Positions 1 to 14,313 of a DNA stretch of 64,000 nucleotides are shown piece after piece (within the stretch, counting starts at the first letter, position 1; each line of letters opens with the position of its first letter). This DNA is from Allocoleopsis franciscana PCC 7113 (GTDB lineage Bacteria > Cyanobacteriota > Cyanobacteriia > Cyanobacteriales > Coleofasciculaceae). The position numbers were made by a program, and so were the translations under genes. The stretch lies in contig NC_019738.1 of assembly GCF_000317515.1 (NCBI RefSeq), positions 2,940,001 through 3,004,000 on the forward strand. The letters run 5' to 3'. The notes below the pieces were generated by a model. That model saw only the letters and a list, made by a program, of their open reading frames with translations. It was not told the DNA's origin and ran no database searches.

Positions 1-748
1 AGGCAAGACATAACTGCCGCTTAAACTCTTCTGGCGTTCTCAAGTGATGCAGGTTAGCAGGAGAAATGAGAAAGGGATGAAGCAGCCATCTTAACCAGCG
101 ATCGAGGTATTCGGAGTCATCTTGTAAGGATGAATGATCGGGATTAGGGGCATCCTCGGTTAACCTCTCCCCTAACCCCTCTCCTACAAGGAGAGGGGCG
201 TCTAACTCCCCCCTTCCCTGGTAGGGAAGGAAGGCTAAGGGGGTTAGGTCAGTCTTATCCGAACAGTACTGGAACTGGGGAGAAATGCAGAAGTAAATTT
301 TACCCGTTGAAAAAGCAGGGCCATTGCGGATTAGGTCGTGCGCCCAAACGCAAAACATCTGATTAAAGGAACGCCGCAGAGATTTGGTGTAGGGTATGCA
401 TTTGGCGGCACTGCGACTTCCAGAGGTTTTTTCGTAGAAAAGGATGGGTTCGGTTGTGAGTTGCGCTTGTAATGGATGAGTGATGGGTTTCCCCTCTATC
501 CCCCTACTGCTATGTCCCCCGACTCCATCAATCCAGGGTTTGAGGTCTTCGTAGTCAACAATCGGAACTTGTTGCCAATCTTGGAGAGAGCGAATGCCCA
601 GGAACTTGCCGTATTCGCTCTTGATGAGGCGATCGCAAATTTCCTGCTGTACTCGCTTCTGCGCTTTTTGAGGATGTTTCAAAGCGTCTCGGAAGTGTGC
701 AGCGCTTGGGGTGAGAAGTTGCTCAAAGAGTTTGATGAACCAACGCAT
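1..748 (-). CDS. GH3-family acyl-acid amido synthetase-like protein (N-terminal part, runs off window)
   Basis: Reading the minus strand from ATG at 748 gives an open frame to the window edge. The N-terminus (MRWFIKLFEQLL), the segment around YGKFLGI, the VPIVDYEDLKPWI block and FYEKTSGSRSAAKCIPYT resemble the adenylate-forming GH3 auxin-responsive family, which activates acyl acids with ATP and joins them to amines; the FYEKTSGS block is the ATP-binding loop. The start overlaps the upstream acyltransferase by about 70 nt, suggesting translational coupling. A dispersed palindromic repeat lies in frame inside the gene and adds about 30 residues. The C-terminal half is outside the window. Family assignment is good; the substrate is unknown. 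Confidence 0.75.
   Translation of the reverse strand, partial: MRWFIKLFEQLLTPSAAHFRDALKHPQKAQKRVQQEICDRLIKSEYGKFLGIRSLQDWQQVPIVDYEDLKPWIDGVGGHSSRGIEGKPITHPLQAQLTTEPILFYEKTSGSRSAAKCIPYTKSLRRSFNQMFCVWAHDLIRNGPAFSTGKIYFCISPQFQYCSDKTDLTPLAFLPYQGRGELDAPLLVGEGLGERLTEDAPNPDHSSLQDDSEYLDRWLRWLLHPFLISPANLHHLRTPEEFKRQLCLA
158..250. repeat. Palindromic GC-rich dispersed repeat inside the GH3 gene
   Basis: Two adjacent inverted-repeat blocks (CTCTCC...GGAGAG and CCCTTCC...GGAAGG) match the class of intergenic repeats seen at about 1.4, 13.1, 14.6, 24.1, 25.4 and 51.0 kb. Here the element keeps the GH3 frame open and is translated as a Pro/Gly/Leu-rich insert. Confidence 0.7.
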
Positions 749-1356
749 GATTTCGCTTCTTGATTAGGATAAAGGTTAGTGGCGACAGGTAGATAAGTGC
801 CATCTGGGACGACGACGCCGGGGCCAAAATGAGAACCTGCCCCCAGGAAAACATCACTGCCAATCTTGACTTTTTTGACGTACAACATTAAGTCTTGTTT
901 GCGGGGTTTGATGGCGTGGGGGTAGATGCCAATGTGATGACCGAAGACAGTGCGATCGCCAATTTCCAACAATCCCCGATCCGCAATTTCCAGTCCAGGC
1001 GTCCAGTATACGTTTTTACCGACTTTTGCTCCCCAAAGGCGCAACCACAGGGAGAAAGCACCAGGAATGAGTCTCAGTAAGGCTTCCAATGTCGGAACGG
1101 CGATATAAATTGCCTGAATTTGATGGCTACCCCACCAAGGGCTATACTCGTTACCGCACAGATAGCTAATGCCTTCCTTGATAGGATAGAACCGCTGATG
1201 GAGGCGATAAATTAACACGGGAAATCCGTATAAGGAAAACAGCAATAGTCCAACGCCGACGAACCCCGGATGAGTGCACAAATAGATGAAAGAAGCTATG
1301 GCTAGCAAGATGATTAGGGTAGGAAAGTAGGCAAGGATTTTACTCAAGAGCGTCAT
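679..1356 (-). CDS. Hexapeptide-repeat (left-handed beta-helix) acyltransferase-like protein
   Basis: This is a 225-residue protein. The N-terminal third has two hydrophobic stretches (about residues 10-60). The C-terminal half has imperfect hexapeptide repeats (IGDRTVFGHHIGIYP, then VKIGSDVFLGAGSHFGPGVVVPDG), typical of trimeric left-handed beta-helix acyltransferases that use acyl-CoA or acyl-ACP donors. It starts at ATG 1356 and overlaps the GH3 start downstream. Next to a GH3 enzyme and a fatty-acid-hydroxylase-type gene it could modify a lipid or amine intermediate. The final 35 residues, inside the overlap, look non-helical and may be a recent C-terminal extension. The acceptor is unknown. 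Confidence 0.7.
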   Translation of the reverse strand: MTLLSKILAYFPTLIILLAIASFIYLCTHPGFVGVGLLLFSLYGFPVLIYRLHQRFYPIKEGISYLCGNEYSPWWGSHQIQAIYIAVPTLEALLRLIPGAFSLWLRLWGAKVGKNVYWTPGLEIADRGLLEIGDRTVFGHHIGIYPHAIKPRKQDLMLYVKKVKIGSDVFLGAGSHFGPGVVVPDGTYLPVATNLYPNQEAKSCVGSSNSLSNFSPQALHTSETL

Positions 1357-1394
1357 ATAGTACCAATTTCAAAGAATAATCCAACACTTGGAAG

Positions 1395-1553
1395 ATCCCC
1401 CTAAATCCCCCTTAAAAAGGGGGACTTTGAAGGCTCAAGATTTTACCCGCAGTCCATGACTTTGGTTTCTGTTTGTATGGCGTATTGAAAATGGGGACTT
1501 TGAATACTCAAGATTTTCCCCCCTTAAAAAGGGGGGCTAGGGGGGATCTAATC
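1395..1553. repeat. Pair of palindromic CCCCCT/AGGGGG dispersed repeats
   Basis: Two copies of a CCCCCTTAAAAAGGGGG-type palindrome (about 1397-1425 and 1520-1553) are linked by a duplicated phrase, GGGGACTTTGAA(G/T)(G/A)CTCAAGATTTT. They lie between the hydroxylase and acyltransferase genes, and the second copy runs into the last codons of the hydroxylase. Confidence 0.7.
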
Positions 1554-2327
1554 TGTAACATCATTAAAGGAAATTGGTATTACGGGATAAAGTAGTTTTT
1601 GAGTTAGGGTCAGCGTAGTCGGAATACCCAGAGAAGCAGGGGGGGCATCACAGTTATAGTAAGTTCCATGTAATTTGTCCCAGATTTTCAAATTTGCCCC
1701 GTAATTCCTGGAACCTGAATCACTGGCATGATGCCAAGCATGATCTTGAGGCAAAATTAGCCAGGGTGACAGGAAGCGAAAAAGCCAGCTTTGAGGTGCG
1801 ATCGCTAATTGACTGTGCCGCCATAGATCTAGCGCTGCGGTGAGACTGACTCCTATCAGGTATCCAGTGGAGTCGTTTAATAAGTAGAGAAAAAACGCAT
1901 GTATCCACAGGTAAATAATCAGAAAGCTTGTCCAAAGACAATTGCGGGAGGTTCCCAGGACATCCATATCCGTGACAGTATGATGAACCTGATGCAAAGA
2001 CCAGAACCAGCGACTATGTAAACAGCGATGGTTCCAGTAGTAGAGGTAATCTACCCAGATGAAACTGAGTAGGAAGGTTGCGACGTGAGGCAAATGCAAG
2101 CATCCTTGCGGCAAGGGTAGAAAGTAGCGATATAGTTGGTAAACTACGGCAATTTGAAGGATGGGAATCAGTAAACCCTGAACCAGCAAACCCACACTAT
2201 CTAAAATCCAATCTTCACGGCTTTTTGTCTGTAACTTTGCCCAACTGGGTTGATGAGTAATAGTGAATCCTATTAATACTATAAAGGTCGCAAAAATTAA
2301 TATATTTTCCACTGTTTTTATACCCAA
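1548..2327 (-). CDS. Fatty acid hydroxylase / sterol desaturase family membrane protein
   Basis: This 259-residue protein has several membrane spans and the histidine clusters of the diiron membrane hydroxylase superfamily: HRCLH (in YYWNHRCLHSRW), HQVHH and, near the C-terminus, HAWHH. The family (C-5 sterol desaturase, fatty acid 2-hydroxylase, carotene hydroxylase) uses O2 and electrons from a ferredoxin or cytochrome b5 to hydroxylate or desaturate lipids. It overlaps the upstream Rieske gene by 10 nt, so the two are probably co-translated. The ferredoxin three genes upstream could supply electrons. The substrate is unknown. Confidence 0.85.
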   Translation of the reverse strand: MGIKTVENILIFATFIVLIGFTITHQPSWAKLQTKSREDWILDSVGLLVQGLLIPILQIAVVYQLYRYFLPLPQGCLHLPHVATFLLSFIWVDYLYYWNHRCLHSRWFWSLHQVHHTVTDMDVLGTSRNCLWTSFLIIYLWIHAFFLYLLNDSTGYLIGVSLTAALDLWRHSQLAIAPQSWLFRFLSPWLILPQDHAWHHASDSGSRNYGANLKIWDKLHGTYYNCDAPPASLGIPTTLTLTQKLLYPVIPISFNDVTD

Positions 2328-3340
2328 AATGTGATTTCAACCGAGCGCTCAGGAAGTTCTCTAGGGTCTTCTCCTGCCGCGATTTTGTTGCGGATAGACT
2401 CGACAAAAACGTGGATGGTATCGGCGGGAGTGTTGGTAAAGTGGGAACCGTATTTAGCGATCGCTTCGCCTTGAATATCCAAAATTTTGATATCCTGACG
2501 AATAATATGCTGCGCCGTCCAGTGTACAAAGGGACGAGCAATTTTATTCCAGATGCCATAGTTATAGGTTACATCTGTATAAACCAGTGTTGAATTCTCT
2601 GTTTCCGGAATGGATTGACTGGTGATGAAAAGTCGTCGATGCGGCCCCATATCGTACTCCACACTGGTAATATTTGGCATGTGGAAACTATCTGTATGCC
2701 GAATTTCATAGCCTTTCCAATTCAGAAAGCGAGAGTACCACCCCAAATTAGTTGTTTCGTTGTAATATTCCACAAACGTCGAACCATTGCGACGTTCTAC
2801 GCTCATTTTGAGCGGTTGCTGACGAGAAGTACGAAATACACCAGGATGGACAAAAGCGGTGTGCGGAATATCGATAAAATTCTCGGCACAGTTCGTTACA
2901 TTGTTGCGAAAGCGGTTAATAACTCGTACCGTTTCCCATCCGGGTTCCTGATAATACGGCATGGCAAAGGGTGCAAATTCTTCGCTCTTGTTATCGCTGA
3001 GTTGTACGTAAATATACCCGTCTTGTTCCTTAGTTTGGTAGGATTTAACTTGACGGGTAGAGAGTGGTTGGAAATCTTTCCCTTCTGAAGGAACTGCCAT
3101 AATTTTTCCAGTATTATCGTATATCCATCCATGATAGGGACATTGAATTTTTCCTTGGCGGACTTTACCACAAGAGAGGCGGCTGTTGCGATGCATACAG
3201 CGATCGCGTAATGCTACGGCTTTACCGTTTTCGTCTCTAAATATTGCTAGCCATTCCCCTAATAGGGTGCGTTGTAAAATTTTATTGGGTGGGAGTTGTT
3301 TGCTGAGTGCTATGATGTACCAGAAATCCTCAAATTTCAT
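2318..3340 (-). CDS. Rieske non-heme iron oxygenase (copy A)
   Basis: This is a 340-residue protein. The N-terminal Rieske [2Fe-2S] motif is CMHRNSRLSCG...CPYHGW (CxH...CxxH, about residues 47-70). The catalytic domain carries the mononuclear iron motif D-x2-H-x4-H in IDIPHTAFVH. This architecture is that of ring-hydroxylating or demethylating monooxygenase alpha subunits, which take electrons from a ferredoxin; a [2Fe-2S] ferredoxin is the next gene upstream. It ends with a 10-nt overlap into the hydroxylase. It is only distantly like the other two Rieske proteins here, which resemble each other more closely. Confidence 0.9.
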   Translation of the reverse strand: MKFEDFWYIIALSKQLPPNKILQRTLLGEWLAIFRDENGKAVALRDRCMHRNSRLSCGKVRQGKIQCPYHGWIYDNTGKIMAVPSEGKDFQPLSTRQVKSYQTKEQDGYIYVQLSDNKSEEFAPFAMPYYQEPGWETVRVINRFRNNVTNCAENFIDIPHTAFVHPGVFRTSRQQPLKMSVERRNGSTFVEYYNETTNLGWYSRFLNWKGYEIRHTDSFHMPNITSVEYDMGPHRRLFITSQSIPETENSTLVYTDVTYNYGIWNKIARPFVHWTAQHIIRQDIKILDIQGEAIAKYGSHFTNTPADTIHVFVESIRNKIAAGEDPRELPERSVEITFWV

Positions 3341-3470
3341 TGTGTTTGAGTTAGAAATAAGGTTTTTTTAACGCAGAGGAACGCGGAGGAATGCGCGGAG
3401 GAGCGCAGAGTTTATGAGGGGATTTGTAGATGAAAATGGTAATAATGTTTTGGGGTTTATACTGGTTTTT

Positions 3471-3764
3471 TCATTCTTTTAAGTGTGTAATTTCTAAATG
3501 GCTTGTAAGTTCTAGCTGGCAGGAAAGTCTGGCATTAGGATGTTCTGGTGCTAGTACTTCTAGCACTTCCCGTTCTTCTGCGCTTGGTGGTGAGGTTTCA
3601 CCGTTGACTAAGACGAGGCAAGTTCCACAAATGCCAGTGCGACAACCAAACAATACCGGAGAATTTTGGATTGTAAGGTGTTCTGATAGTTTTTGATGCG
3701 CGTCTAGGATGATGGATGGATAGTTAGTGCCTGGAAAAGAGATGATGTATTGTTTCTCATTCAT
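3471..3764 (-). CDS. Plant-type [2Fe-2S] ferredoxin
   Basis: The start chosen is ATG 3764 (MNEKQYIISFPG), which overlaps the stop of the upstream diiron gene in the string ATGAATGA; a longer in-frame start at 3812 would overlap 56 nt. The cluster motif is CRTGICGTCLVLVNG with a distal cysteine in RLSCQLEL, the C-x4-C-x2-C...C pattern of soluble plant-type ferredoxins. Its likely role is electron donor to the neighbouring Rieske and diiron oxygenases. No reductase gene is visible in the cluster. Confidence 0.85.
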   Translation of the reverse strand: MNEKQYIISFPGTNYPSIILDAHQKLSEHLTIQNSPVLFGCRTGICGTCLVLVNGETSPPSAEEREVLEVLAPEHPNARLSCQLELTSHLEITHLKE

Positions 3765-4932
3765 AGGTTTTCTTCCTGTTAAATAACGCCAATGCTTTCT
3801 TTTGCGTGGCAAGATATTGGGGTATTGAATTAGAAGCCATTAAGGACATTTCTCGATTAATCTTCCAGGCGTAATCTACTTTTTCTAGATAAACCTTATA
3901 AGATGCGATCGCTTCTCGATGGGTTTGGTAACTTCGTTGTAAGCCTTCCGACTCTTGGCTAAAGCACAATTGCATCATCTCTTTGGCTTCATGATCGTCC
4001 ATATTAAAAATAGACGATCGCAAGATTTGATAAATTGCTGAGTAAAGTGCTGGATCATACCAAAAAATCCCATTGATTGCGGCGGAAAAATGGTAATGAT
4101 CTCGCTGACAACCCCGCAATCCCAAATTAGCTACAAATTGTTCAAAAACTGTCGGAGGCTTGAGGCACTTTACGACTTCATGGGAAAGAATTGTTGAACT
4201 ATTAAAATGAAAGCTCTCATCCATAAAGTGATAGTAGGAAATTTTGGCGGGAATAGGAGCTTTTTCCGGGTGAGGATGTTTTTGGTAATAATTACTTAAC
4301 TTATGCTGTACTAACTTGCCATTGAGTGTTCGTATTCCCCGCACGGTAAAGTATTGACAGGCGAGAAATGCATTATCTGACGACAATAACCCAAAGCAAT
4401 GGAGTTGCAGTTTTTTCCACCAAGTTTTTAGATCATTGGTATCGGCATAAATCATTGTTTCGGTAAAAGGGCCACGCATGGCATAAGTAAAAATATGCCG
4501 ACCAAATAAAGCTATTTCGACTTGGCTGGAAATCGTTCTAAATGCGTGAATGTGAGCGCGTTCTTGCATCGATTCTAAATCCAGCATGTCGCAAACTAGG
4601 CGAAAATCCTCCTGCGCGTAGAGTCCGGCGGCACTGGTTTGGTTAAAGAAGATAGTAGCAATTTCAGCAGAAACAATTTGGGAATAGTAAGCTACCCAAT
4701 AGAGTTGATTTAAAATGATTCGCTGGCTGGGAGTTGCCTGTTCCCAAACAGGAGTTCCGTAAAGCAGGGAGAATTCTTCCGGATTCCAATATTCGTCCTT
4801 ACAATCTTCATAACGGAAAGCTTGGGATGCTTCATCCATTAAAATCGTGTGGTCTTGTTGCTTGTTGCGCGTATAGTTGAGATAGATTTTTTTATAAATC
4901 TTCTGATTTTCTGATATAGTATTATTAATCAT
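3757..4932 (-). CDS. AurF-like non-heme diiron oxygenase
   Basis: This 391-residue protein has the spacing of carboxylate-bridged diiron oxygenases of the AurF type (p-aminobenzoate N-oxygenase): Glu90 in SAEIATIFF, E124-R-A-H127, and an H-x3-E-x2-H motif at 235-242 (HFMDESFH) followed by another His. AurF-family enzymes oxidise aryl amines, hydroxylate carbons or cleave bonds with O2. It is translationally coupled to the ferredoxin by an 8-nt overlap. A 93-nt gap separates it from the ferritin-like gene upstream. The ligand pattern is clear; the reaction cannot be read from sequence. Confidence 0.75.
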   Translation of the reverse strand: MINNTISENQKIYKKIYLNYTRNKQQDHTILMDEASQAFRYEDCKDEYWNPEEFSLLYGTPVWEQATPSQRIILNQLYWVAYYSQIVSAEIATIFFNQTSAAGLYAQEDFRLVCDMLDLESMQERAHIHAFRTISSQVEIALFGRHIFTYAMRGPFTETMIYADTNDLKTWWKKLQLHCFGLLSSDNAFLACQYFTVRGIRTLNGKLVQHKLSNYYQKHPHPEKAPIPAKISYYHFMDESFHFNSSTILSHEVVKCLKPPTVFEQFVANLGLRGCQRDHYHFSAAINGIFWYDPALYSAIYQILRSSIFNMDDHEAKEMMQLCFSQESEGLQRSYQTHREAIASYKVYLEKVDYAWKINREMSLMASNSIPQYLATQKKALALFNRKKTYE

Positions 4933-5025
4933 TTAATTTGAGTTTTATGGGTTAATTAATCCATTGCCAATCTCTATTTGGACGGGTCAATACAGCTAAT
5001 TTCTGTTGTTTATTCCAAGCCTTAG

Positions 5026-6018
5026 CTATAAACACTGACTTGCCGGAAGAGGTTCAAAAGCTCCTCTTACTGAGAGTGCTTGCACGATCGCTTCTGAGGC
5101 TTCCCCTCGCATCAGAGAACGCAGCAGATTTAACCGAGTGCCACTGTGGGTTTCGGTGTCGAGTTCTTCCAAGATGTGGATTTTTTGCGATCGCGTCAAA
5201 TCCCCTTTAACTTGAGCAATTGCTCCCACCACTCGCTGAGGGCCGACGCGAATCATCTGCAAGAAAGAGAAGAGTGTCTCGACAATGACGGCTCGACTTT
5301 GCGAAGAAACCGATGTTTGCTCAAATAGAATTAATCCAGTCCCGTGATGTCGTGCTTCGTCTTGCAGGAATCCGGTTAAGACTTGACTTAGGGTGCGATC
5401 GCAACAACCTTTAGCCAGACTGCGATAATGACTCAACCCCCACCCCTCCAGTACTAGCTGGATCGTAAACAACAACACCGTTTTATCCTGACTCTCGACT
5501 AAATCTGCGAGGAAGCGCAAAAATGTATCGTCCGAACCAACAGGGCGATCGGGCAGGAAAGCGCTAATCTGTCTGAGATGGGTAGCTTCATTCGCGGCGA
5601 ACAAACTGTAAAGCATCCGTTCTTCTGTTGTCTCTGCCAGCAACGCCATTTTTGCCATATAGCCCATGCCAGCTTTTTCGACAAAATACGCCTCTTCCAG
5701 CAATCCGCGATTAGCAATTTGCAAAATGGCGGCCTGTTCCTCTAAGCTGGAATCCTGAAAAATCTTTACCTTGTGCAATCCGAAGTAGTCCGCATCCCAA
5801 TATAGGGCGCTGCTACGCTTTGAAGATAAGGAATCGCCGAACCGATTTCCTAGCGCCGCAGACAGGATGCATCCTAACTTATCCGCTTCCCCGACGTGGG
5901 GTAAGTCTAATCCTGCCGTTTCAAAGGGTAATGGTTGCAAGGGAATGTTGAAATGTACATTCTCGCCTGTTGTCTGATCGATGGGTTCTGACCTTACCCC
6001 GTAGTTTTTAGTGTTCAT
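5026..6018 (-). CDS. Ferritin-like diiron-domain protein
   Basis: The start chosen is ATG 6018, two nt after the upstream stop; an in-frame ATG at 6051 would sit inside the upstream gene. The 330-residue helical protein has two ExxH motifs (E144-A-T-H147 and E221-A-R-H224) with further acidic residues (EEAYFVEK, LEGWGLSHY), as in a four-helix diiron carboxylate site. Such proteins include oxygenases, oxidoreductases and chaperone-like ferritins. Its place between the AurF-like and Rieske genes suggests an oxidation step. The exact family was not recognised. Confidence 0.65.
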   Translation of the reverse strand: MNTKNYGVRSEPIDQTTGENVHFNIPLQPLPFETAGLDLPHVGEADKLGCILSAALGNRFGDSLSSKRSSALYWDADYFGLHKVKIFQDSSLEEQAAILQIANRGLLEEAYFVEKAGMGYMAKMALLAETTEERMLYSLFAANEATHLRQISAFLPDRPVGSDDTFLRFLADLVESQDKTVLLFTIQLVLEGWGLSHYRSLAKGCCDRTLSQVLTGFLQDEARHHGTGLILFEQTSVSSQSRAVIVETLFSFLQMIRVGPQRVVGAIAQVKGDLTRSQKIHILEELDTETHSGTRLNLLRSLMRGEASEAIVQALSVRGAFEPLPASQCL

Positions 6019-6020
6019 CT

Positions 6021-7052
6021 TTAATCCTTCGCGCTTTCCCACGTACCCCATAGCAAGGGTTTTTGCCCCTCTACGTGTTCAATAAACTGTAAAATTGACC
6101 GATCGGCTGGAGTGGGAGTCTTCAAATCAAACTTAATTGTCTGAAAAACTTGAGAATCCCCCTTAGCAAAGTAATTCCCGACCTGCTGAGTTAACCAGAG
6201 TACAATTCGGTTAAAAATCCACCCACCCAATCCAGAACGCTTGCGGGTAATCATAATAGTTTGACCTTCAGTCTTACCATCCTCAATTAGTCGCAGGGCA
6301 AACATAATATGAAAGTGCAGGAAATCTGGTCCCAAGGTGACTGTACCTGTGCTGCCGTACCAATAGCACATACTGTAAGTGACTGCATTTTTGTAGAACG
6401 GGCGAAGGAGTTTGATTAAAAAAGACTCTTCCCCACCCCTTGTTGTGTTGCTAAAAGTAATTGCGTTTTGATTCAATTCTCGCTTCTCAAACACAATCTG
6501 TAGAGGCAGATTGTGAACAGTATTGAAGTGATGAGCATCAATCGCATTAATCAGCAACACATTGGGGTGACAGTTCTTCACAAAGCGAGAACCAAAAGCA
6601 ATATTGCACTCTTCATCCTGAAGTTCGGGTACAAAAGGTACGGGTTGTTGTGGCGTTTCCCCCGTCCATACCCAAACCATACCGTACTGCTCCGCTGTAG
6701 GCCAAGTTCGCACGCTAACTAGGACGGGTTTACCCAAAGATGGCGTATCAATGCACTTTCCTTGCTCGTCAAACTGCCAATTGTGAAAAAAACAGCGGAT
6801 TCGGCACCCTTCAACCTTGCCTTCTGCCAAGTGTGCGCCCATATGCGGACAGTAAGCATCTAGCGCGACTACCTTCCCATCCGTTCCCCGGTAAATTGCT
6901 AATTCTCGTCCGAGCAAGGTTACGGGTTTGACCTGACCAGCTTTAAGCTTACTAGAGGGAATCGCCCAGTACCACCCTTCGATAAAGCAGCCTGCATGGT
7001 TAAAAATCTGGGTTTTACGAGTTGAACGAACCCTGTGTGAATTTACCGTCAT
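6021..7052 (-). CDS. Rieske non-heme iron oxygenase (copy B)
   Basis: This is a 343-residue protein. The Rieske motif is C68-P-H70...C87-F-F-H90, and the mononuclear iron motif is in NAIDAHHFNTVH (D-x2-H-x4-H). It is clearly paralogous to the plus-strand Rieske at 13279-14313 (shared GWYxAxPS, CPHxGxxL, NxIDAxH, RGxGGW). This looks like the cholesterol-7-desaturase/VanA-like branch acting on hydrophobic substrates. Its start overlaps the stop of the upstream GNAT-like gene by 4 nt (ATGA), and the ferritin-like gene follows after 2 nt. Confidence 0.9.
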   Translation of the reverse strand: MTVNSHRVRSTRKTQIFNHAGCFIEGWYWAIPSSKLKAGQVKPVTLLGRELAIYRGTDGKVVALDAYCPHMGAHLAEGKVEGCRIRCFFHNWQFDEQGKCIDTPSLGKPVLVSVRTWPTAEQYGMVWVWTGETPQQPVPFVPELQDEECNIAFGSRFVKNCHPNVLLINAIDAHHFNTVHNLPLQIVFEKRELNQNAITFSNTTRGGEESFLIKLLRPFYKNAVTYSMCYWYGSTGTVTLGPDFLHFHIMFALRLIEDGKTEGQTIMITRKRSGLGGWIFNRIVLWLTQQVGNYFAKGDSQVFQTIKFDLKTPTPADRSILQFIEHVEGQKPLLWGTWESAKD

Positions 7053-7780
7053 GACGCAACCCCTAAGGAAGCTTTAGCAAACCACATGCGCCTACCTGCC
7101 GGAGTTAGATTTTCTTCCTTAATTTCTGTTAAACAGACTAATTCATCTCCCTGTTCATAGCCTGGATTTTGGGTTTGAAAGAAACAGATATGGGAATCTT
7201 TCAGCCGTTCTTGAGGGATGCCACACAATTTTTCTCGGAGTACCTGGGGATGGGGAAAGCGAACGACTCCAGCCTGTTTGTCGTAGTAATTGTCGAAACG
7301 GGTGTGAGCGAGGAATTGCATGAGTACCTGGATGCGGGGCGGGGTGGGGGTATCATAGCAGGGATAAAACTCTTTCCAAAAAATCGGTAAAAAGCGGTAA
7401 GTGCGATAACCGGAAGAAATAAGCAACCAGTAGAGTTTACCGTTGGGATACTTGTCCCGTAAAAAATGAATTGAGGCAATCCAAGCACGAGGCAAGAGCG
7501 AACTCGACCAAGCACTGGGGTCTACAATGGTATCTCCAGAATAGACGACACTCACGACTTCTCCCTCAAACTGGGTTTCGTAAACCAATAAGGTGGAAAA
7601 GCCTTTGAGCGTTTTTGTCTCCCGATCTTCTAAGAGAATAACCCAGTTTTTCTGCTCTAGGTCAGCCTCAAATCGTTCTGGCTTGACTCCCTGAAAATGG
7701 GTATTTAGAAGGGAGTACATCGCAATGCGATCGCTTTTCAGCAATTGTTGAACTTCAACCAGTCGCGCCTGCATAGGCAT
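7049..7780 (-). CDS. Conserved protein with GNAT-like features
   Basis: This 243-residue protein is the first gene of the minus-strand arm. WVILLEDRETKTLKGFSTLLVYE, VVYSGDTIVDPSAW and LYWLLISSGYRTYRFLP resemble the beta-strand core of GNAT-fold N-acyltransferases, but no firm acyl-CoA loop (RxxGxG/A) was found. Two start codons (7780 and 7774) are possible. If it is an N-acyltransferase it could make an N-acyl intermediate for the cluster; this is an inference from context. Confidence 0.5.
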   Translation of the reverse strand: MPMQARLVEVQQLLKSDRIAMYSLLNTHFQGVKPERFEADLEQKNWVILLEDRETKTLKGFSTLLVYETQFEGEVVSVVYSGDTIVDPSAWSSSLLPRAWIASIHFLRDKYPNGKLYWLLISSGYRTYRFLPIFWKEFYPCYDTPTPPRIQVLMQFLAHTRFDNYYDKQAGVVRFPHPQVLREKLCGIPQERLKDSHICFFQTQNPGYEQGDELVCLTEIKEENLTPAGRRMWFAKASLGVAS

Positions 7781-7967
7781 TGATGTCTGCTTTGTGCATA
7801 GTATTGTTCCAATCTAGGTTTCTCTAGACTATCAGCCGTCAAATCATGTGCAGCTTTATAAGCTGTCATTAGGAAAAGGTTTTTTACTGGAGTTGCCTTA
7901 TCTTGATAGTATCTGCTTTGAGAAATTTCTGGAGTTATCTGTATATAACAAATATTTAACCTATTGG

Positions 7968-7973
7968 TATAAT
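7968..7973 (+). promoter_or_regulatory. Candidate extended -10 promoter of the plus-strand arm
   Basis: TATAAT preceded by TGG (extended -10) lies 47 nt before the ATG at 8020, in the 239-bp divergent region between the two arms. No good -35 hexamer is present at 16-18 bp. Confidence 0.4.
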
Positions 7974-8019
7974 TGAAGGTTATTTCATTCCTGATTCTAA
8001 GCAGGAAAACAAGGAATAC

Positions 8020-8658
8020 ATGAGAGAACAGAGACGCTTAAGCAGATATAAATGGAGTCAGCGACTTGGGGCTATTTTACTTGTGCTAGCAATTTGGAAT
8101 GTACCCCAATGCGCTCTAGCGGATGTCAACCAACAGGAGGTTAATGCGATTATCCGCACGCGAGAGATGGCGCTGCAAGCACTTAACACTCGCAATTTTT
8201 CCAAAATTGAACCTTACTTGCATCCAAGCTTCACGATTACCACAGTTGATAACCGGGTTTTTCATAAAGTGCCTGAATTTGAGCAGTATTGGAATCAACA
8301 GTTCTCCAGTTCAATTAAAGACATCAAAATGGAGGCGAAGGTGGATACTCCTAGAACGTTTCTCTCCCCGGAAACGGCCATTTCCTACGGAGATGCGCTT
8401 GCAACCTTCTATTTTAAAGATGGCAATAAACCCACAATGGCAATGCGATGGACAGCCGTGCTGCAAAAGTTCCAGGATAGATGGACCATTCAATCGCTGC
8501 ATTTTTCTTCCAACCTGCTGGATAATCCAGTACTAAATGGTGCCCAGCTAGCTAGTCGTGTTTGGGCAGTTGCGGCAGGAGTGGGCGGTATCCTGCTGGG
8601 GGCAGTCGCGATGCTGTTGTGGCGTCGCAAGCCTAAGCGAACGATAGAGAGAGTTTAA
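8020..8658 (+). CDS. Secreted or anchored SnoaL-like (NTF2-fold) protein
   Basis: This is a 212-residue protein with a signal peptide (about residues 18-35, ending near CALA) and a SnoaL/DUF4440-like domain at 36-165 (IIRTREMALQALNTRNFSKIEPYLHPSF, AISYGDALATFYF, WTIQSLHF). A C-terminal membrane helix (about 180-203) is followed by a basic tail, so the domain is likely exported and anchored. The glycosyltransferase gene starts 8 nt downstream. NTF2-fold domains bind small hydrophobic ligands or act as isomerases/hydrolases; the function here is unknown. Confidence 0.65.
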   Translation: MREQRRLSRYKWSQRLGAILLVLAIWNVPQCALADVNQQEVNAIIRTREMALQALNTRNFSKIEPYLHPSFTITTVDNRVFHKVPEFEQYWNQQFSSSIKDIKMEAKVDTPRTFLSPETAISYGDALATFYFKDGNKPTMAMRWTAVLQKFQDRWTIQSLHFSSNLLDNPVLNGAQLASRVWAVAAGVGGILLGAVAMLLWRRKPKRTIERV

Positions 8659-8666
8659 AAAATCCA

Positions 8667-9962
8667 GTGGAACGAAGTACTTGTCACTTCAGTAACAATG
8701 TCAGCGTTGATCGCGATCGCCGCCTCAAAGCCACCCTCATGGTTCTATTTGTCTGGGGTTTCGTCAGTTTACTCCACTGGCAACCCCAGACACAGTGGCT
8801 GATGGTGGGATTAACGGCAGTTCTGACGATTCAAACGGTACGAATGCTCATGGCAAAAGCGAACCCTCCCAGGGTAGAGGGTGATGCCGATTTGCCCACA
8901 GTCTCGATTCTGGTTCCCGCCAAAAATGAAAGTGTTGTCTTGCCCGATGTGGTTCATAGCCTATTCCACCTGAACTATCCCAGCACTCATCTGGATATCT
9001 GGATTGTGGATGACGGCAGTACTGATGAAACCCCCCAAATTTTGAGGAAATTACAAACTGAATTTCCGGGGTTACAGGTTCATCAACGGGAATCCAAAGG
9101 AGGTAAATCAGGAGCACTCAATGCAGTTTTTCCCTTCACACAAGGCGATATTGTACTCGTTTGCGATGCCGATGCTCAACTTCCTGCCAATTTTCTCCGG
9201 CAAACCGTACCTCTGTTTCAGAAGAGGGCGATTGGTGCAGTGCAAGTGCGAAAAGCGATCTTGAATGCAGATACCAATTTCTTAACTCGTTGCCAGCAGA
9301 TGGAAATGAGCTGTGATGTTTTTCTGCAAACCCATCGAATTGCAATAGGAGGAATGACTGAGCTTCGGGGCAATGGTATGTTAGTTCGTCGGGAACTGCT
9401 AGAAAAGTGCAACGGTTGGAGTGAGGACACCGTCACCGATGATTTGGATCTCTGCTTCAAGCTTTATCTGACAGGCACAGAAATTGAGTTTGTCATAGTT
9501 CCAGCGATTCAGGAAGAAGGAGTGACAACCTGGAGAGAGTTTTGGCATCAACACTGTCGTTGGGCAGAAGGTGGATATCAGCGTTACCTGGATTATTTTC
9601 CCCAAATCCTGACCTTGGGATGGGCTAAAGAAATCGATTTACTATTGTTTTTTCTACTACAGTTTATTCTCCCAATTGGACTTATTCCTGACTTACTCTG
9701 GACAATCTTTTATAGTCATCATCCAGTCTTATTTCCACTCCAGACACTACTGAGCATCATTCTGACAGTTGCTTTTATCGCCGGACTTTACCAATATCAA
9801 AAATTACGAGGAGGGTCTTTACTGTGGGCGACCATCCAAGGTTCTTTCTACATGGTGCATTGGATTCCAGTGATGATTGTGACCACCTTAAAGCTGTGTA
9901 TCAAACCACAGAAATTGAATTGGATTAAGACGGAGCATCGCGGTGGAATGAATTATGAATGA
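8667..9962 (+). CDS. Processive-type family 2 glycosyltransferase, membrane protein
   Basis: This 431-residue protein uses a GTG start; an internal ATG 25 codons later is an alternative. A GT-A catalytic domain (VSILVPAKNE, DDGSTDETP, DXD in CDADAQ, TVTDDLD, and Q-x2-RW in HQHCRWAEGG) is flanked by two N-terminal and three or four C-terminal membrane helices. This is the layout of cellulose/hyaluronan/poly-GlcNAc synthase-like and glycolipid beta-glycosyltransferases, which use nucleotide sugars at the cytoplasmic membrane. It overlaps the next gene by 8 nt. It may glycosylate the cluster's lipid product; the sugar is unknown. Confidence 0.85.
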   Translation: MERSTCHFSNNVSVDRDRRLKATLMVLFVWGFVSLLHWQPQTQWLMVGLTAVLTIQTVRMLMAKANPPRVEGDADLPTVSILVPAKNESVVLPDVVHSLFHLNYPSTHLDIWIVDDGSTDETPQILRKLQTEFPGLQVHQRESKGGKSGALNAVFPFTQGDIVLVCDADAQLPANFLRQTVPLFQKRAIGAVQVRKAILNADTNFLTRCQQMEMSCDVFLQTHRIAIGGMTELRGNGMLVRRELLEKCNGWSEDTVTDDLDLCFKLYLTGTEIEFVIVPAIQEEGVTTWREFWHQHCRWAEGGYQRYLDYFPQILTLGWAKEIDLLLFFLLQFILPIGLIPDLLWTIFYSHHPVLFPLQTLLSIILTVAFIAGLYQYQKLRGGSLLWATIQGSFYMVHWIPVMIVTTLKLCIKPQKLNWIKTEHRGGMNYE

Positions 9963-10872
9963 GGAAGCAGATAATCTTTTAGAAAAACAGAAAAAATACT
10001 TTACGTTAATTGGGTTAACCGTTTATGAAAGTCAATGCATTGAACATAAGCTAAAAATGCTGAGTAAGTTTATGCCTCTTCCCTATGATAAATTTCATAG
10101 TACCAAAGAAGAGTTTTTGTCAAGAGAAACATCCCTTGACAAAAAAACACTTGGTTTTGTCATTAATGAATTAAAAAAAAGGTCATTTACGTTAAATGAT
10201 GATGCAGAATTTTTAATTAACAAATTTGTGATTGAAAGAAATACTGTTGTTCATCACCTTGTGAAACTACCAGGATTTAATGTTAACACAGAGGAAGGAA
10301 TCGATAGAGGAATAAAATTTTTAGATGAATATAGAAAAACGATACAAGTAATTAATGATATTTTTGACCCAATTCTAATCTCAGTACATATTGTATTATG
10401 CGAAAATGCTAACACTGATGACATCAAATTATATCAAGAAAAACTGAATGAACTTTATTTACTCTTAAATGACTCATTAAAAAGAGCAGGCGGCTCTCTT
10501 GAAATAGAGTTTCATGACAATAATAATATTGATGATCGTTTTGATTCGTTAATTAAAAATCATTTGAATAAAAATGATTCGTCTGCATTGAACCCACAAA
10601 AAGAGAAAAAGAAGTTATGGAAAAAAACTAAAATTATTCAGGCATTGAGTCGGATTGCGGCAGATATAGCCAATCAAGATGGATGGATTGCCTTATCTGT
10701 TTGTGAACAACGGTTGAAAACAGAATGTCCTGACATAAAACCTGATGATTATGGGTTTAACACTATTCTGGAAATAATCAAAACATGCAATTTATTTGAA
10801 ATTAAAAAATCAAAACACAAAAAGCACAAAATCTCTGTTCGGTTCCATCAAGAAAGAAATGAAATTGGCTGA
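9955..10872 (+). CDS. Protein with C-terminal OST-HTH/LOTUS-like domain, AT-rich
   Basis: This is a 305-residue, Lys/Asn/Ile-rich protein. Residues about 215-300 (QALSRIAADIANQDGWIALSVCEQ..., then DDYGFNTILEIIK) resemble an OST-HTH/LOTUS RNA-binding domain. The N-terminal 190 residues are helical and of no recognised family (ESQCIEHKLKML..., NTVVHHL). Base composition is far more AT-rich than the genes on both sides, a sign of transfer. It overlaps the glycosyltransferase 3' end by 8 nt, so it would be translated with it. It may be unrelated to the pathway. Confidence 0.6.
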   Translation: MNEEADNLLEKQKKYFTLIGLTVYESQCIEHKLKMLSKFMPLPYDKFHSTKEEFLSRETSLDKKTLGFVINELKKRSFTLNDDAEFLINKFVIERNTVVHHLVKLPGFNVNTEEGIDRGIKFLDEYRKTIQVINDIFDPILISVHIVLCENANTDDIKLYQEKLNELYLLLNDSLKRAGGSLEIEFHDNNNIDDRFDSLIKNHLNKNDSSALNPQKEKKKLWKKTKIIQALSRIAADIANQDGWIALSVCEQRLKTECPDIKPDDYGFNTILEIIKTCNLFEIKKSKHKKHKISVRFHQERNEIG

Positions 10873-10892
10873 AATTAGAAAAATTGCGAATA

Positions 10893-12602
10893 ATGCTGGA
10901 TTTACTGATTCAAAACGGGTTAATTTTCGACGGTTTAGGCTCTGCGCCGATTCGCGGGGATATTGGCATTCAAAAGGGTCGAATTATTGCCATATCTCCA
11001 TCTTTACCTAACAATGCCCGTGAAGTGGTGGATGCTTCCGGATTGTGGGTTACGCCAGGATTTATCGATATCCACACCCACTATGATCTAGAGTTAGAGA
11101 TTGCACCGGGATTGAGTGAATCCGTTCGTCATGGCGTTACCAGCGTTGTGATTGGCAACTGTAGCTTGTCTGTTGCTGTTGGGAAACCCCAAATGCTGGC
11201 GGATATTTTTCAGAGAGTAGAGACGCTTTCCCATCGACTGATTGAGAAATGGTTAAAACAGTCGCTTTCTTGGCATACACCAGCCGAATATTTGAACCAT
11301 TTGCAGCAGTTGCCACTTGGCCCCAATGTTGCCCCTTTGTTTGGGCATAGTGCTTTACGCGCCCACGTCATGGGATTGGAACGTAGTCTGACAGTTCAGC
11401 CCTCAAAAACTGAACTAAAAACCATGCAACAAATAGCCGCAGATGCTTTAGATGCGGGATTTTTTGGCATTTCAATTGACATGTTTCCCTGGCATCGGAT
11501 GAGTGGAGAATGGCGGGGCTGCTCCATTCCGTCGCAACATGCCAAACTGGGTGAATACGCTATGTTAGCCAATCTGTGTCGGCAACGCGATCGGGTTTTT
11601 CAAGTCACTCCGAATTTACAGCGACTGGCTTCCTTTCTAGATATTCTCCGCATGGGTTTAGGCATTGGACAACGACCCCTGCGCCTAACCGTACTCTCCG
11701 CTTTAGATGCCGTACACGATCGCAAACTATGGCGAATATTTTCCCCTCTCCTGTTCATCTGGAACCGGATTCTCAGGGGCAATGTGCGCTTTCAAACCCT
11801 CACCGAACCCTTCACGATATACTCCGATGGCCCAGTCACGCCATTATTTGAAGAATTCTCCACAGGCGCACAACTTAATAGCTGTGAGTCACGACAAGAA
11901 CGGCAAAAATTGTGGCAATCTGAACGTTTCCGTCGTCAGTTTCGACAAGAATGGAGCAATCCGTGGCGTAAGTCATTCCATCGTCAGTTGGAATTGATGG
12001 AAATTGTCCGGTGTCCTGAAGTGAGTTGGCAAGGGTTGAGTTTTGCCGAAATTGCCCGCCAAAAGCAACAAGATCCGGTGGATTTCTTCATCCAGGCGTT
12101 GCATCACTACGACACCGATCTAGGCTGGGTGGCAACGGGAGCCAACGATCGCTTAGAACCCCGTCTAGCTATGATGCAGCACCCCTATATCTTGCCCGGT
12201 TTTACGGATGCGGGTGCCCATGTCCGTAACCTCGGCTACTATGATGGAGCTTTATCGTTGCTTAAACAAGCTGTTACCACTCATTTCCTCTCTCCTGAAA
12301 CCGCTATTCATCGCGTCACCGGAGAACCTGCTCAATGGTTTCGTCTCGATACCGGAGTTCTGAAAATTGGCGCTAAAGCCGATCTGGTTTTACTCAATCC
12401 GCAAGCTTTGAACCAGCCCATCAGCCCACAAGTAGAAATATCAGATCCAGTCTTAGATGGCGAACTTCGTAGGGTCAAACGTGGGTCAGATGATATCGTG
12501 CAAGCTGTTTATATTAATGGGATTCAGGCTGTTCATCAAGGTCAAGTTTGTGAACAATTGGGGCGCGAACAACTGGGAACTGTTTTATCTCCCATACTTT
12601 AG
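10893..12602 (+). CDS. N-acyl-D-amino-acid deacylase-like amidohydrolase
   Basis: The ATG at 10893 (MLDLLIQNGLIFDG) is preferred over a TTG 9 nt upstream. The 569-residue protein shows the amidohydrolase/D-aminoacylase layout: an N-terminal beta-sandwich strand (IQKGRIIAI), GFIDIHTHYD metal-binding motif, HGVTSVVIGNCS, late TDAGAHVRNLGY with the catalytic Asp, and a closing GVLKIGAKADLVLLNP. Members hydrolyse N-acyl-D-amino acids, dihydropyrimidines or related amides. Together with a GH3-type amide-forming enzyme this gives the cluster an amide-making and an amide-breaking activity. The exact substrate is not predictable. Confidence 0.85.
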   Translation: MLDLLIQNGLIFDGLGSAPIRGDIGIQKGRIIAISPSLPNNAREVVDASGLWVTPGFIDIHTHYDLELEIAPGLSESVRHGVTSVVIGNCSLSVAVGKPQMLADIFQRVETLSHRLIEKWLKQSLSWHTPAEYLNHLQQLPLGPNVAPLFGHSALRAHVMGLERSLTVQPSKTELKTMQQIAADALDAGFFGISIDMFPWHRMSGEWRGCSIPSQHAKLGEYAMLANLCRQRDRVFQVTPNLQRLASFLDILRMGLGIGQRPLRLTVLSALDAVHDRKLWRIFSPLLFIWNRILRGNVRFQTLTEPFTIYSDGPVTPLFEEFSTGAQLNSCESRQERQKLWQSERFRRQFRQEWSNPWRKSFHRQLELMEIVRCPEVSWQGLSFAEIARQKQQDPVDFFIQALHHYDTDLGWVATGANDRLEPRLAMMQHPYILPGFTDAGAHVRNLGYYDGALSLLKQAVTTHFLSPETAIHRVTGEPAQWFRLDTGVLKIGAKADLVLLNPQALNQPISPQVEISDPVLDGELRRVKRGSDDIVQAVYINGIQAVHQGQVCEQLGREQLGTVLSPIL

Positions 12603-12615
12603 CTGAAGATACCTT

Positions 12616-13053
12616 ATGAGTAACCTCAATCCTACTCTCCGGCAGACGTTGAGCAATCGAATTAACGACCAAATTTTGGAGCATCCGTTTACAGACTACT
12701 GGGATATCTTTGTCCTCAAACACCAGCACCCCATTAATGTTGCTCTCCATATAGTGGGGATAATCTTCTTTTACAGCTTGCTTTTTTGGACTTGGAAGTT
12801 GCAAAATTTCTGGTTCCTCTTGGGCTTGCCGCTCACTCAGTTAATAGGATTAACGGGGCATTTTCTGTTTGAGCAGAGTCATATCGATCGACAAGATGCT
12901 GTATTTTCTTGGCGAGCTTCTTGCTGTTTAGGTCGAATGCTATTAAGGATTCTTTTAGGCAAATATGGAGAGGATATCCGCCAACGGCAAGAGGTATTAC
13001 AGCAGTATCAGTCAAAAGGAGATTCAACTGACATCTGTCTTGAAAATGGGTAA
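12616..13053 (+). CDS. Mpo1-like (DUF962/YGL010w) membrane protein
   Basis: This 145-residue protein lies 13 nt after the amidohydrolase. It has the pattern of the Mpo1/YGL010w family: HPFTDYWDIFVLKHQHPINVALHIVG, two membrane helices, and GLTGHFLFEQSHIDRQDAVFSW. Yeast Mpo1 is an Fe(II)-dependent dioxygenase for alpha-oxidation of 2-hydroxy fatty acids. Conserved His residues (H34, H36, H42, H74) are present. This adds another O2-dependent lipid enzyme to the cluster. Assignment is from remembered family pattern. Confidence 0.65.
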   Translation: MSNLNPTLRQTLSNRINDQILEHPFTDYWDIFVLKHQHPINVALHIVGIIFFYSLLFWTWKLQNFWFLLGLPLTQLIGLTGHFLFEQSHIDRQDAVFSWRASCCLGRMLLRILLGKYGEDIRQRQEVLQQYQSKGDSTDICLENG

Positions 13054-13110
13054 TGGGTAATGGGGTAGAGAGATTTTCATTGTTTGTTGTGAGCGCTAGC
13101 TCATGGGAAG

Positions 13111-13202
13111 TCTTGCACCAAGCATTTTTACCCCTCCCCAGCCCTCCGGTTATCAAGGGGAGGGAGTTAAATTCCCCCCTTAACAAGGGGGGTGGTGCAA
13201 GA
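13111..13202. repeat. Palindromic dispersed element with TCTTGCACCA terminal inverted repeats, copy 1
   Basis: The element starts TCTTGCACCA and ends with the perfect reverse complement TGGTGCAAGA. Inside are CCCCTCCCC...GGGGAGGG and CCCCCCTT...AAGGGGGG palindromes. It matches the element at 14586-14686 and sits between the Mpo1-like and Rieske genes. Confidence 0.75.
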
Positions 13203-13278
13203 TGTGAATTCAACCAACGGCTGAACGATATCAGTCATAAAGCAAATCACAGAGAGAAAAAATACCAGGTTTTAAGCC

Positions 13279-14313
13279 ATGCAAATCTTCAACAACTGGA
13301 ATGTCGTTGCTAAGGGTTGGTATATTGCCTGTCCCAGTCATGAATTACTGAAGGGAAAAGTAAAATCTTTAGAGGTTTGTGGGCAAAGAATTGTGATATT
13401 TCGGGGTGAGGATGGGCAAGTGCGGGCAATGGATGCTTATTGCCCTCATCTTGGGACAGATTTGGGAATTGGACAGGTTGATGGCAATTGGATTCGTTGT
13501 GCGTTTCATCATTGGGCATTTGATGAAACAGGGCATTGTCAGAACATTCCCTGTCAGCCGGAAATTCCTGCTAAAGCTAAATTACAAGCTTATGCAACGG
13601 AAGAAAAGTATGGGTTTATTTGGATTTATCCAGACGCATCAGCACCAGAGAAAGTCGCTGATTTTGATGAACTTAAAAACAAAGCGATCGCTATTCAATA
13701 TGATCGAGCCTTTGAGCGGAGTTGCCATCACCACATTTGCATGATGAATGGGATTGATGCTCAACATTTAAAGACGATTCATCATCTCGACATCAAAATG
13801 GAATTGTCTTTGGATCGAGATGAATCAGGGACACAAATGGATTTCACAATGCGGGGGCAGTTTCCTCAAACAACTTTTCGGGAACGCTTAGGGCAGAGAT
13901 TTTTAGGTTCTACCTATGAATATTCAATGCGGTATGCTCATGGCTGCATCGGCTTGCTAACGATGATGAAAAATGTACGGTTTTTTTCTCCACTACAGAT
14001 GATTTTTGCCTACACCCCCATCACACCGGGAAGAACGCGAATTCAACCCATTTATGTGACCGAAAAGCGCCGAGGCATCGGGGGGTGGCTGCTGAGTCAG
14101 TTCTTGCTATTGTGTACTCGCTTGGCTTACTACATGCTCAGAGATGAAGACGGCGAGATTTATGACAATATTCGATTTAATCCGAAGGTACTCCTGGGTA
14201 TTGATACGCCCTTGGTTCAGTATATGGACTATGTGAACAAGTTAGAACCGTCGCAATGGTCGCTGACGAAAACAGATGCTTCTGTTAAGCATGAGACGTT
14301 TCAAAGATTTTAG
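13279..14313 (+). CDS. Rieske non-heme iron oxygenase (copy C)
   Basis: This is a 344-residue protein. The Rieske motif is CPHLGTDLG...CAFHHW, and the mononuclear iron motif is NGIDAQHLKTIH (D-x2-H-x4-H). It is paralogous to the Rieske protein at 6021-7052, with the same GWYIACPS opening and RGIGGW near the C-terminus. It is last in the plus-strand arm and is separated from the Mpo1-like gene by 225 bp containing a palindromic repeat, so it may have its own transcript. It presumably uses the ferredoxin of the minus-strand arm. Confidence 0.88.
   Translation: MQIFNNWNVVAKGWYIACPSHELLKGKVKSLEVCGQRIVIFRGEDGQVRAMDAYCPHLGTDLGIGQVDGNWIRCAFHHWAFDETGHCQNIPCQPEIPAKAKLQAYATEEKYGFIWIYPDASAPEKVADFDELKNKAIAIQYDRAFERSCHHHICMMNGIDAQHLKTIHHLDIKMELSLDRDESGTQMDFTMRGQFPQTTFRERLGQRFLGSTYEYSMRYAHGCIGLLTMMKNVRFFSPLQMIFAYTPITPGRTRIQPIYVTEKRRGIGGWLLSQFLLLCTRLAYYMLRDEDGEIYDNIRFNPKVLLGIDTPLVQYMDYVNKLEPSQWSLTKTDASVKHETFQRF

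Follow-up and report, generated by a model that had tools for sequence, protein, structure and literature searches.

CylC-family enzymes functionalize unactivated C-H bonds, and those that have been studied act on substrates tethered to carrier proteins. Eusebio et al. reported in 2021 that the largest class among ~95 surveyed clusters comprises 36 'Rieske-containing' CylC-homolog clusters, which encode a CylC homolog, two to four Rieske proteins and usually a sterol desaturase, but no carrier protein, and which have no known product (PMC8406957). Related 'PriA-containing' clusters in Synechocystis have the other functions dispersed, and a few proteobacterial and melainabacterial homologs had already been noted (PMC8406957). 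Here we describe a gene set in a 64,000-nucleotide stretch of the Allocoleopsis franciscana PCC 7113 genome (NC_019738.1, positions 2,940,001 to 3,004,000; hereafter 'the window'). The first ~14 kb of the window, together with ~1 kb to its left that completes the first gene, hold the whole set.

The set encodes a CylC homolog, three Rieske oxygenases (RieA, RieB and RieC), a ferredoxin (FDX), a ferritin-like protein (FERR), a membrane protein of the fatty-acid-hydroxylase superfamily (FAH), a GH3 acyl-amido synthetase, and GNAT-fold and hexapeptide (HEX) acyltransferase-like proteins. An optional module adds SnoaL-like, glycosyltransferase (GT2), amidohydrolase (AMID) and Mpo1-like (MPO1) proteins (Table 1). 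With three Rieske proteins, a PF04116 protein (86 bits) and no carrier-protein, thiolation or polyketide synthase (PKS) domain or fatty-acyl-AMP ligase (FAAL) among the scanned cluster proteins, the locus is a member of the 'Rieske-containing' class and is not new in kind. Its Rieske-type CylC homolog is present as a single copy in the genome. A preliminary description, made from the sequence of the window, knew of no named pathway with this set, and it is in this respect that it has to be amended, as the architecture was described in 2021. Our literature searches, which covered only a minority of subscription papers, found no characterized product for the class.

We propose, with a probability of roughly 0.55, that the cluster encodes an O2-dependent pathway that activates, conjugates and stepwise oxidizes a fatty-acyl substrate, and that the CylC homolog most likely chlorinates it. 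A further proposal, which we regard as tentative and somewhat doubtful, is that the genes constitute an all-or-none, phylum-crossing pathway to a new class of oxidized acyl lipid that might carry chlorine. The Gln-variant diiron enzyme of this pathway would act on a free-standing rather than a carrier-bound substrate, with chemistry other than that of CylC.

Conservation and co-inheritance of the gene set

A scan of GTDB species genomes returned 119 relatives, the best 80 of which were fetched as 72 cyanobacterial loci and eight others. The latter derive from Planctomycetota, Elusimicrobia, Myxococcota (two), Bacteriovorax/Bacteriovoracaceae (two), Accumulibacter and 'Cyanobacteria bacterium SZAS-4', probably from a lineage without photosynthesis. 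Metagenome-assembled genomes (MAGs) account for most of these eight. Neighborhoods were counted in the 49 cyanobacterial loci with near-full flanks. A nine-gene core (GNAT, RieB, FERR, CylC homolog, FDX, RieA, FAH, HEX and GH3) is complete in 34 of these, and RieC lies beside the core in 44. RieB, FERR, the CylC homolog and FDX occur in all eight of the other loci, and all ten genes including RieC are found in four of them (L123, L124, L125 and L127; Myxococcota and Bacteriovorax-like MAGs). Distances between partner proteins track those between CylC homologs (Spearman 0.81-0.97), a correlation that shared descent alone could give.

Presence and absence were also followed through 59 genomes, namely that of A. 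franciscana and 58 relatives. The Rieske-type CylC homolog is found in nine genomes from eight families, the weaker matches elsewhere being other CylC types, and RieA is found in exactly the same nine. The chance of such a match is 8e-11 under independence. The genomes do not satisfy that assumption, but the carriers span those eight families. GH3 is present in the same nine genomes plus two with weaker matches, and FERR is likewise in all nine, with G049 as the only addition. A congener (G028) of one carrier (G056) lacks all four of these genes. Physical linkage is not required for this pattern, as evident by G056, where 0.4-0.95 Mb of a single chromosome separate the parts, and by G035 and G048, where they lie on different contigs. 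The cluster genes are therefore inherited as one unit, both where they are dispersed and in unrelated phyla, and the retention or loss of the set as a unit under these circumstances argues for one conserved product. It also provides a parts list for reconstitution.

These comparisons bear out the observation made in the preliminary description, and its interpretation in part. The region is real, well conserved and functionally coherent: homologs are not scattered without co-occurring, but recur together in dozens of genomes beyond chance expectation, and both the conserved neighborhood and the genome-wide co-occurrence, which extends to unlinked genes, support a single coherent oxidative pathway of lipid type.

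The dispersed arrangements suggest two linkage modules, GNAT-RieB-FERR-CylC homolog and FDX-RieA(-FAH-HEX-GH3). Since FDX adjoins RieA even where the CylC homolog is located elsewhere (G056 and G035), RieA may be the main partner of FDX. The earlier view of FDX as a dedicated ferredoxin remains plausible, but it is RieA rather than the CylC homolog that FDX follows. In G049, which lacks RieA, GH3 and the CylC homolog, GNAT, FERR and HEX stand side by side (L132, G049:C1:1396000-1415999, positions 9126-11488; 48-52% identity), and this trio may therefore be a separable sub-pathway.

The genes are transcribed divergently from a region between 7.8 and 8.0 kb of the window, and SnoaL, GT2, AMID and MPO1 are missing near many cores; SnoaL, for example, occurs in five of the 49 cyanobacterial loci and two of the eight others. 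Such an arrangement could also arise if two unrelated clusters happened to be adjacent, one extending on the minus strand from GH3 to GNAT and the other on the plus strand from SnoaL to RieC. We consider this quite improbable, given that RieC, the last gene of the plus-strand group, so commonly accompanies the core and that AMID and MPO1 in turn accompany RieC in 22 of 23 loci where RieC is upstream (1 of 21 where it is downstream). In the Elusimicrobia, Accumulibacter and SZAS-4 loci the core has AMID and MPO1 (or SnoaL) next to it. Furthermore, the four genomes of the 59 that have AMID are all carriers (chance 3e-4 under independence), even where AMID resides on a separate contig (G041). The recurrence of AMID and MPO1 and the restriction of AMID to carriers indicate that the plus-strand genes are part of the system, although not an obligatory one.

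The diiron protein and the proposed pathway

The protein previously called AurF-like scores 21.3 bits against PF11583, below the gathering cutoff of 29.6. Its sequence ESMQERAH (at 120) matches ExxQExxH, a motif that 85 of 85 members of its clade keep together with the halogenase-specific Gln; HFMDESFH (at 235) matches HxxDExxH. These two motifs serve to recognize dimetal-carboxylate halogenases and to separate them from AurF (PMC12871659, PMC12101540). An identity as AurF is thus ruled out, and by motif the protein is assigned to the CylC family of diiron proteins. Eight of the nine NocO/CylC active-site residues are kept. The ninth, at the position of AurF E196 and NocO E252 beside the proposed chloride site, is Gln209 instead of Glu, a correspondence taken from the MAFFT alignment and from the spacing of 26 residues to the next His (27 in NocO).

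In the pathway that we favor, GH3 would adenylate an acyl chain and join it to an amine, and GNAT and HEX would transfer acyl groups, such that a carrier protein is dispensable. The CylC homolog would employ two irons, O2 and electrons to abstract hydrogen from the chain, and would most likely add a chlorine, possibly as a cryptic modification. Further oxygenations or desaturations would fall to FERR, FAH and the three Rieske enzymes, with FDX delivering electrons, chiefly to RieA. Where present, the optional AMID, Mpo1-like, GT2 and SnoaL module might contribute acyl-amide hydrolysis, chain oxidation and glycosylation.

The catalytic residues expected for most of these roles are retained. GH3 enzymes activate a carboxylic acid by adenylation and couple it to an amine. 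In an alignment of 55 GH3 homologs, the motifs TSGS..K, ATE and GLYRYRIGD keep T, S, G and K, T and E, and G, Y and D, respectively, as invariant residues. The histidine boxes of FAH are likewise invariant (63 homologs), as are the four Cys of FDX (74 homologs). In all three Rieske proteins the ligands C-x-H and C-x2-H and the iron site D-x2-H-x4-H are kept, and these are invariant among aligned homologs of RieA (68), RieB (78) and RieC (63). FERR retains E120, E125, E155xxH158, E202 and E232xxH235 in 80 of 80 homologs, and its model gives weak fold matches to AurF, ADO and R2lox, with E above 0.02. GNAT has no Pfam match, but its AlphaFold model (pLDDT 92) matches GNAT structures in a Foldseek search (best E 2.7e-6, TM 0.4-0.6, core fold only). 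HEX scores 25.5 bits for Hexapep, slightly below the cutoff of 27, and GT2 carries the motifs DDG, DAD and QHCRW. A PF00848 profile search of the A. franciscana genome gave no match, because the cluster Rieske enzymes carry other C-terminal domains.

Most of the enzyme assignments made at the outset have accordingly stood. These include three Rieske oxygenases (86-89 bits for the Pfam Rieske domain), two of them clearly paralogous (RieB and RieC share ~31% identity), a ferritin-like diiron protein, and a fatty-acid hydroxylase, a Fer2 ferredoxin and an Mpo1-like protein that all exceed Pfam cutoffs. The GH3, hexapeptide, GNAT-like and processive-type glycosyltransferase genes were also correctly recognized.

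The lack of carrier-protein, thiolation and PKS domains implies a substrate that comes from central metabolism and is handled free or conjugated; similar reasoning on carrier-less substrate supply has been offered for the class (PMC8406957). The GH3 motifs, taken together with GNAT, HEX, FAH (with OlsE as its nearest named relative), the Mpo1-like protein and AMID, suggest that the chemistry is of the acyl-amide type and acts on a fatty chain.

Several observations weigh against this pathway. Substrate identity, the order of steps and chlorination are all inferred. The acyl nature of the substrate is deduced from enzyme families only, and GH3 and FAH are remote by score from every characterized enzyme. 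The likeness of RieB and RieC to steroid and alkaloid oxygenases is at least as great as that to any lipid enzyme. Finally, Gln209 occupies the position at which a Glu-to-Ala exchange in NocO (E252) abolishes chlorination (PMC12101540).

The Rieske profiles are consistent with a cyclic small molecule, such as an alkaloid, terpenoid or aromatic compound, on which the acyl enzymes would act late as decoration. RieB and RieC are nearest to KshA (3-ketosteroid 9-alpha-hydroxylase) and to the saxitoxin oxygenases SxtDIOX and SxtT, which for RieB are the closest relatives of solved structure, and RieA is also close to SxtDIOX and to demethylases. Among NCBIfam families, all three score highest with the sterol demethylase SdmA (NF052579), whose identity is itself ruled out by scores of 71-85 bits against a cutoff of 600. 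We judge a cyclic substrate to be unlikely, however, because the conserved set includes no terpene cyclase, PKS, nonribosomal peptide synthetase or aromatic-precursor gene, and because GH3, FAH, GNAT and the Mpo1-like protein fit acyl chemistry. Hopanoids are excluded as a general substrate, as 7 of the 11 carriers tested lack squalene-hopene cyclase.

The identity of the residue at the NocO E252 position divides the CylC homologs that we gathered. It is Gln in 85 of 85 members of the clade that includes the cluster protein and Glu in 11 of 11 others, and a long branch with a split support of 1.0 separates the two groups. No assay of any CylC-type enzyme from the Gln clade was found in the literature searched. 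A real possibility, which we hold to be less than even, is that the enzymes of this clade are diiron hydroxylases, desaturases or cyclases, with the Glu-to-Gln change as the sign of a different activity, and that the product is a polyoxygenated, non-chlorinated lipid. What argues for chlorination nonetheless is that none of the eight other active-site residues has changed, the halogenase-specific Gln of ExxQExxH among them, and that in NocO the residue at the exchanged position does not bind metal. Indeed, the authors of the 2025 study (241 sequences) accept Gln at this position in a small subset, which we infer to be the Rieske-associated clade. Because the Gln is clade-wide, the choice between chlorination and hydroxylation at a diiron site could be approached by exchanging this one residue, Gln for Glu or Glu for Gln.

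One lead on a product comes from Nostoc punctiforme. In strain ATCC 29133, a chloride-dependent compound, C31H59O2Cl, persists after deletion of ngl, another CylC-type cluster (PMC10849952). Strain NIES-2108, recorded as N. punctiforme, has a Rieske-type cluster (L066), and C31H59O2Cl is a candidate product if ATCC 29133 carries one too. This formula contains no nitrogen, and therefore an acyl-amide would be only an intermediate if the compound is the product.

Gene organization and surroundings

The window belongs to a replicon of 7.47 Mb, within a 9-contig genome of 7.97 Mb. GH3 is truncated by the start of the window; the intact gene (G000:C1:2939018-2940748, L001 17018-18748) matches GH3, GH3_M and GH3_C. 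The preliminary description had inferred operon organization from overlaps of GNAT with RieB through ATGA and of the CylC homolog with FDX through ATGAATGA. Both are present, and the RieA/FAH and HEX/GH3 genes overlap as well, but gaps of 93 bp (FERR/CylC homolog), 130 bp (FDX/RieA) and 191 bp (FAH/HEX) intervene. The minus-strand genes are thus operon-like without forming an unbroken chain.

Table 1. Genes of the Rieske-containing cluster and two neighboring genes, in window coordinates.
Gene product	Coordinates	Strand	Basis
GH3 acyl-amido synthetase, N-terminal part	2..748	-	Pfam GH3/GH3_M/GH3_C
HEX, hexapeptide (left-handed beta-helix) acyltransferase-like	679..1356	-	Pfam Hexapep 25.5 bits, conserved GH3 neighbor
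FAH, membrane fatty-acid-hydroxylase/sterol-desaturase superfamily	1548..2327	-	PF04116 86 bits
RieA, VanA-type Rieske oxygenase	2318..3340	-	PF00355 86 bits, VanA_C 42 bits
FDX, plant-type [2Fe-2S] ferredoxin	3471..3812	-	Fer2 32 bits; likely start ATG at 3764
CylC-family diiron protein ('AurF-like')	3757..4932	-	ESMQERAH, HFMDESFH, Gln209, separate clade
FERR, ferritin-like diiron carboxylate protein	5026..6051	-	Ferritin_2 23.3 bits, just under cutoff
RieB, Rieske oxygenase	6021..7052	-	PF00355 88.5 bits
GNAT-fold acyltransferase-like protein	7049..7780	-	AlphaFold pLDDT 92, Foldseek to GNAT structures
SnoaL-like protein, optional second module	8020..8658	+	SnoaL_3/DUF4440
GT2 processive-type glycosyltransferase, optional second module	8667..9962	+	Glyco_tranf_2_3 110 bits
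OST-HTH/LOTUS-domain protein	9955..10872		Between GT2 and AMID
AMID, amidohydrolase, optional second module	10884..12602	+	Amidohydro_3 66.5 bits
Mpo1-like membrane protein (MPO1), optional second module	12616..13053	+	PF06127 35.5 bits, cutoff 24
RieC, Rieske oxygenase paralogous to RieB	13279..14313	+	PF00355 89 bits
Histidine kinase, ETR1 (ethylene-receptor-like) sensor	14780..16888		Adjoins RieC

To the left of GH3 are a pentapeptide-repeat protein and two further genes that look like chlN and chlL by inspection; all three lie outside the conserved set. RieC marks its right end, followed by the histidine kinase with an ETR1-like sensor. Homologs of this kinase (41-54% identity) lie beside GNAT in L084, L085, L089 and L111 and near the cluster in L035. 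The kinase may regulate the cluster, but such kinases are common. The LOTUS-domain gene is found near the cluster in 3 of the 49 loci; it is ruled out as a pathway member on this count and is probably unrelated cargo. A hunt for further conserved neighbors yielded only a short-chain dehydrogenase/reductase (SDR) gene, which accompanies the cluster, within it or next to it, in seven loci that are outliers or non-cyanobacterial (L116, L121, L124, L125, L127, L128 and L129) and not in typical cyanobacterial ones. In the Spirirestis rafaelensis locus (L053), RieC occurs twice side by side (72% and 66% identity), which brings the Rieske oxygenases to four.

Two features of the DNA were also noted. 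In the GH3 of A. franciscana, ~45 additional residues (65-208, corresponding to L001 18065-18208) separate nucleotide-binding motifs I and II; the GH3 proteins of other genera lack them (match gap 160-207). At the DNA level this stretch resembles a G+C-rich palindromic repeat that has been inserted and is translated in frame. Between FAH and HEX (1357-1547) are two inverted copies of an element of the CCCCCTTTTTAAGGGGG type, further copies of which are located in the window at 13172, 25440 and 51008.

Relation to known systems

The cluster's diiron protein shares with the N-oxygenase AurF (PF11583) a diiron four-helix fold family and a partial Pfam match, but has Gln in place of AurF D135 and again in place of the seventh AurF ligand, E196. 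With the halogenases CylC and NocO (PMC12101540) it has in common both signature motifs and eight of the nine active-site residues. It differs from them in the Gln at NocO E252, in belonging to a separate clade and in having no acyl carrier protein or FAAL among its neighbors. The clade has no carrier protein nearby, unlike the studied CylC enzymes with their tethered substrates, and keeps all but one active-site residue.

The bacterial GH3 enzyme OlsH joins fatty acids to ornithine to yield N-acyl-ornithine (PMC12493201). As in that system, the cluster encodes a bacterial GH3 with the nucleotide-binding motifs, situated beside lipid-modifying genes. However, its GH3 scores 28.5 bits against the OlsH family (NF052613, cutoff 620), and the conserved genes include neither an OlsI-type alpha/beta-hydrolase nor OlsG. 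The best named NCBIfam relative of FAH is OlsE (NF052566), at 62 bits against a cutoff of 475. With scores so far under the cutoffs, membership of GH3 and FAH in these families is ruled out.

The closest match is to the 'Rieske-containing' clusters themselves, which likewise combine one CylC homolog, three Rieske proteins, a sterol desaturase/fatty-acid hydroxylase and acyltransferases without a carrier protein, and which occur in cyanobacteria and a few other phyla; nothing essential differs. What the present analysis adds to the class as defined in 2021 is the full set with GNAT, FERR, FDX, HEX and GH3 and the optional AMID, MPO1, GT2 and SnoaL genes, the co-inheritance of these genes when unlinked and across phyla, and the clade-wide Gln of the diiron protein.

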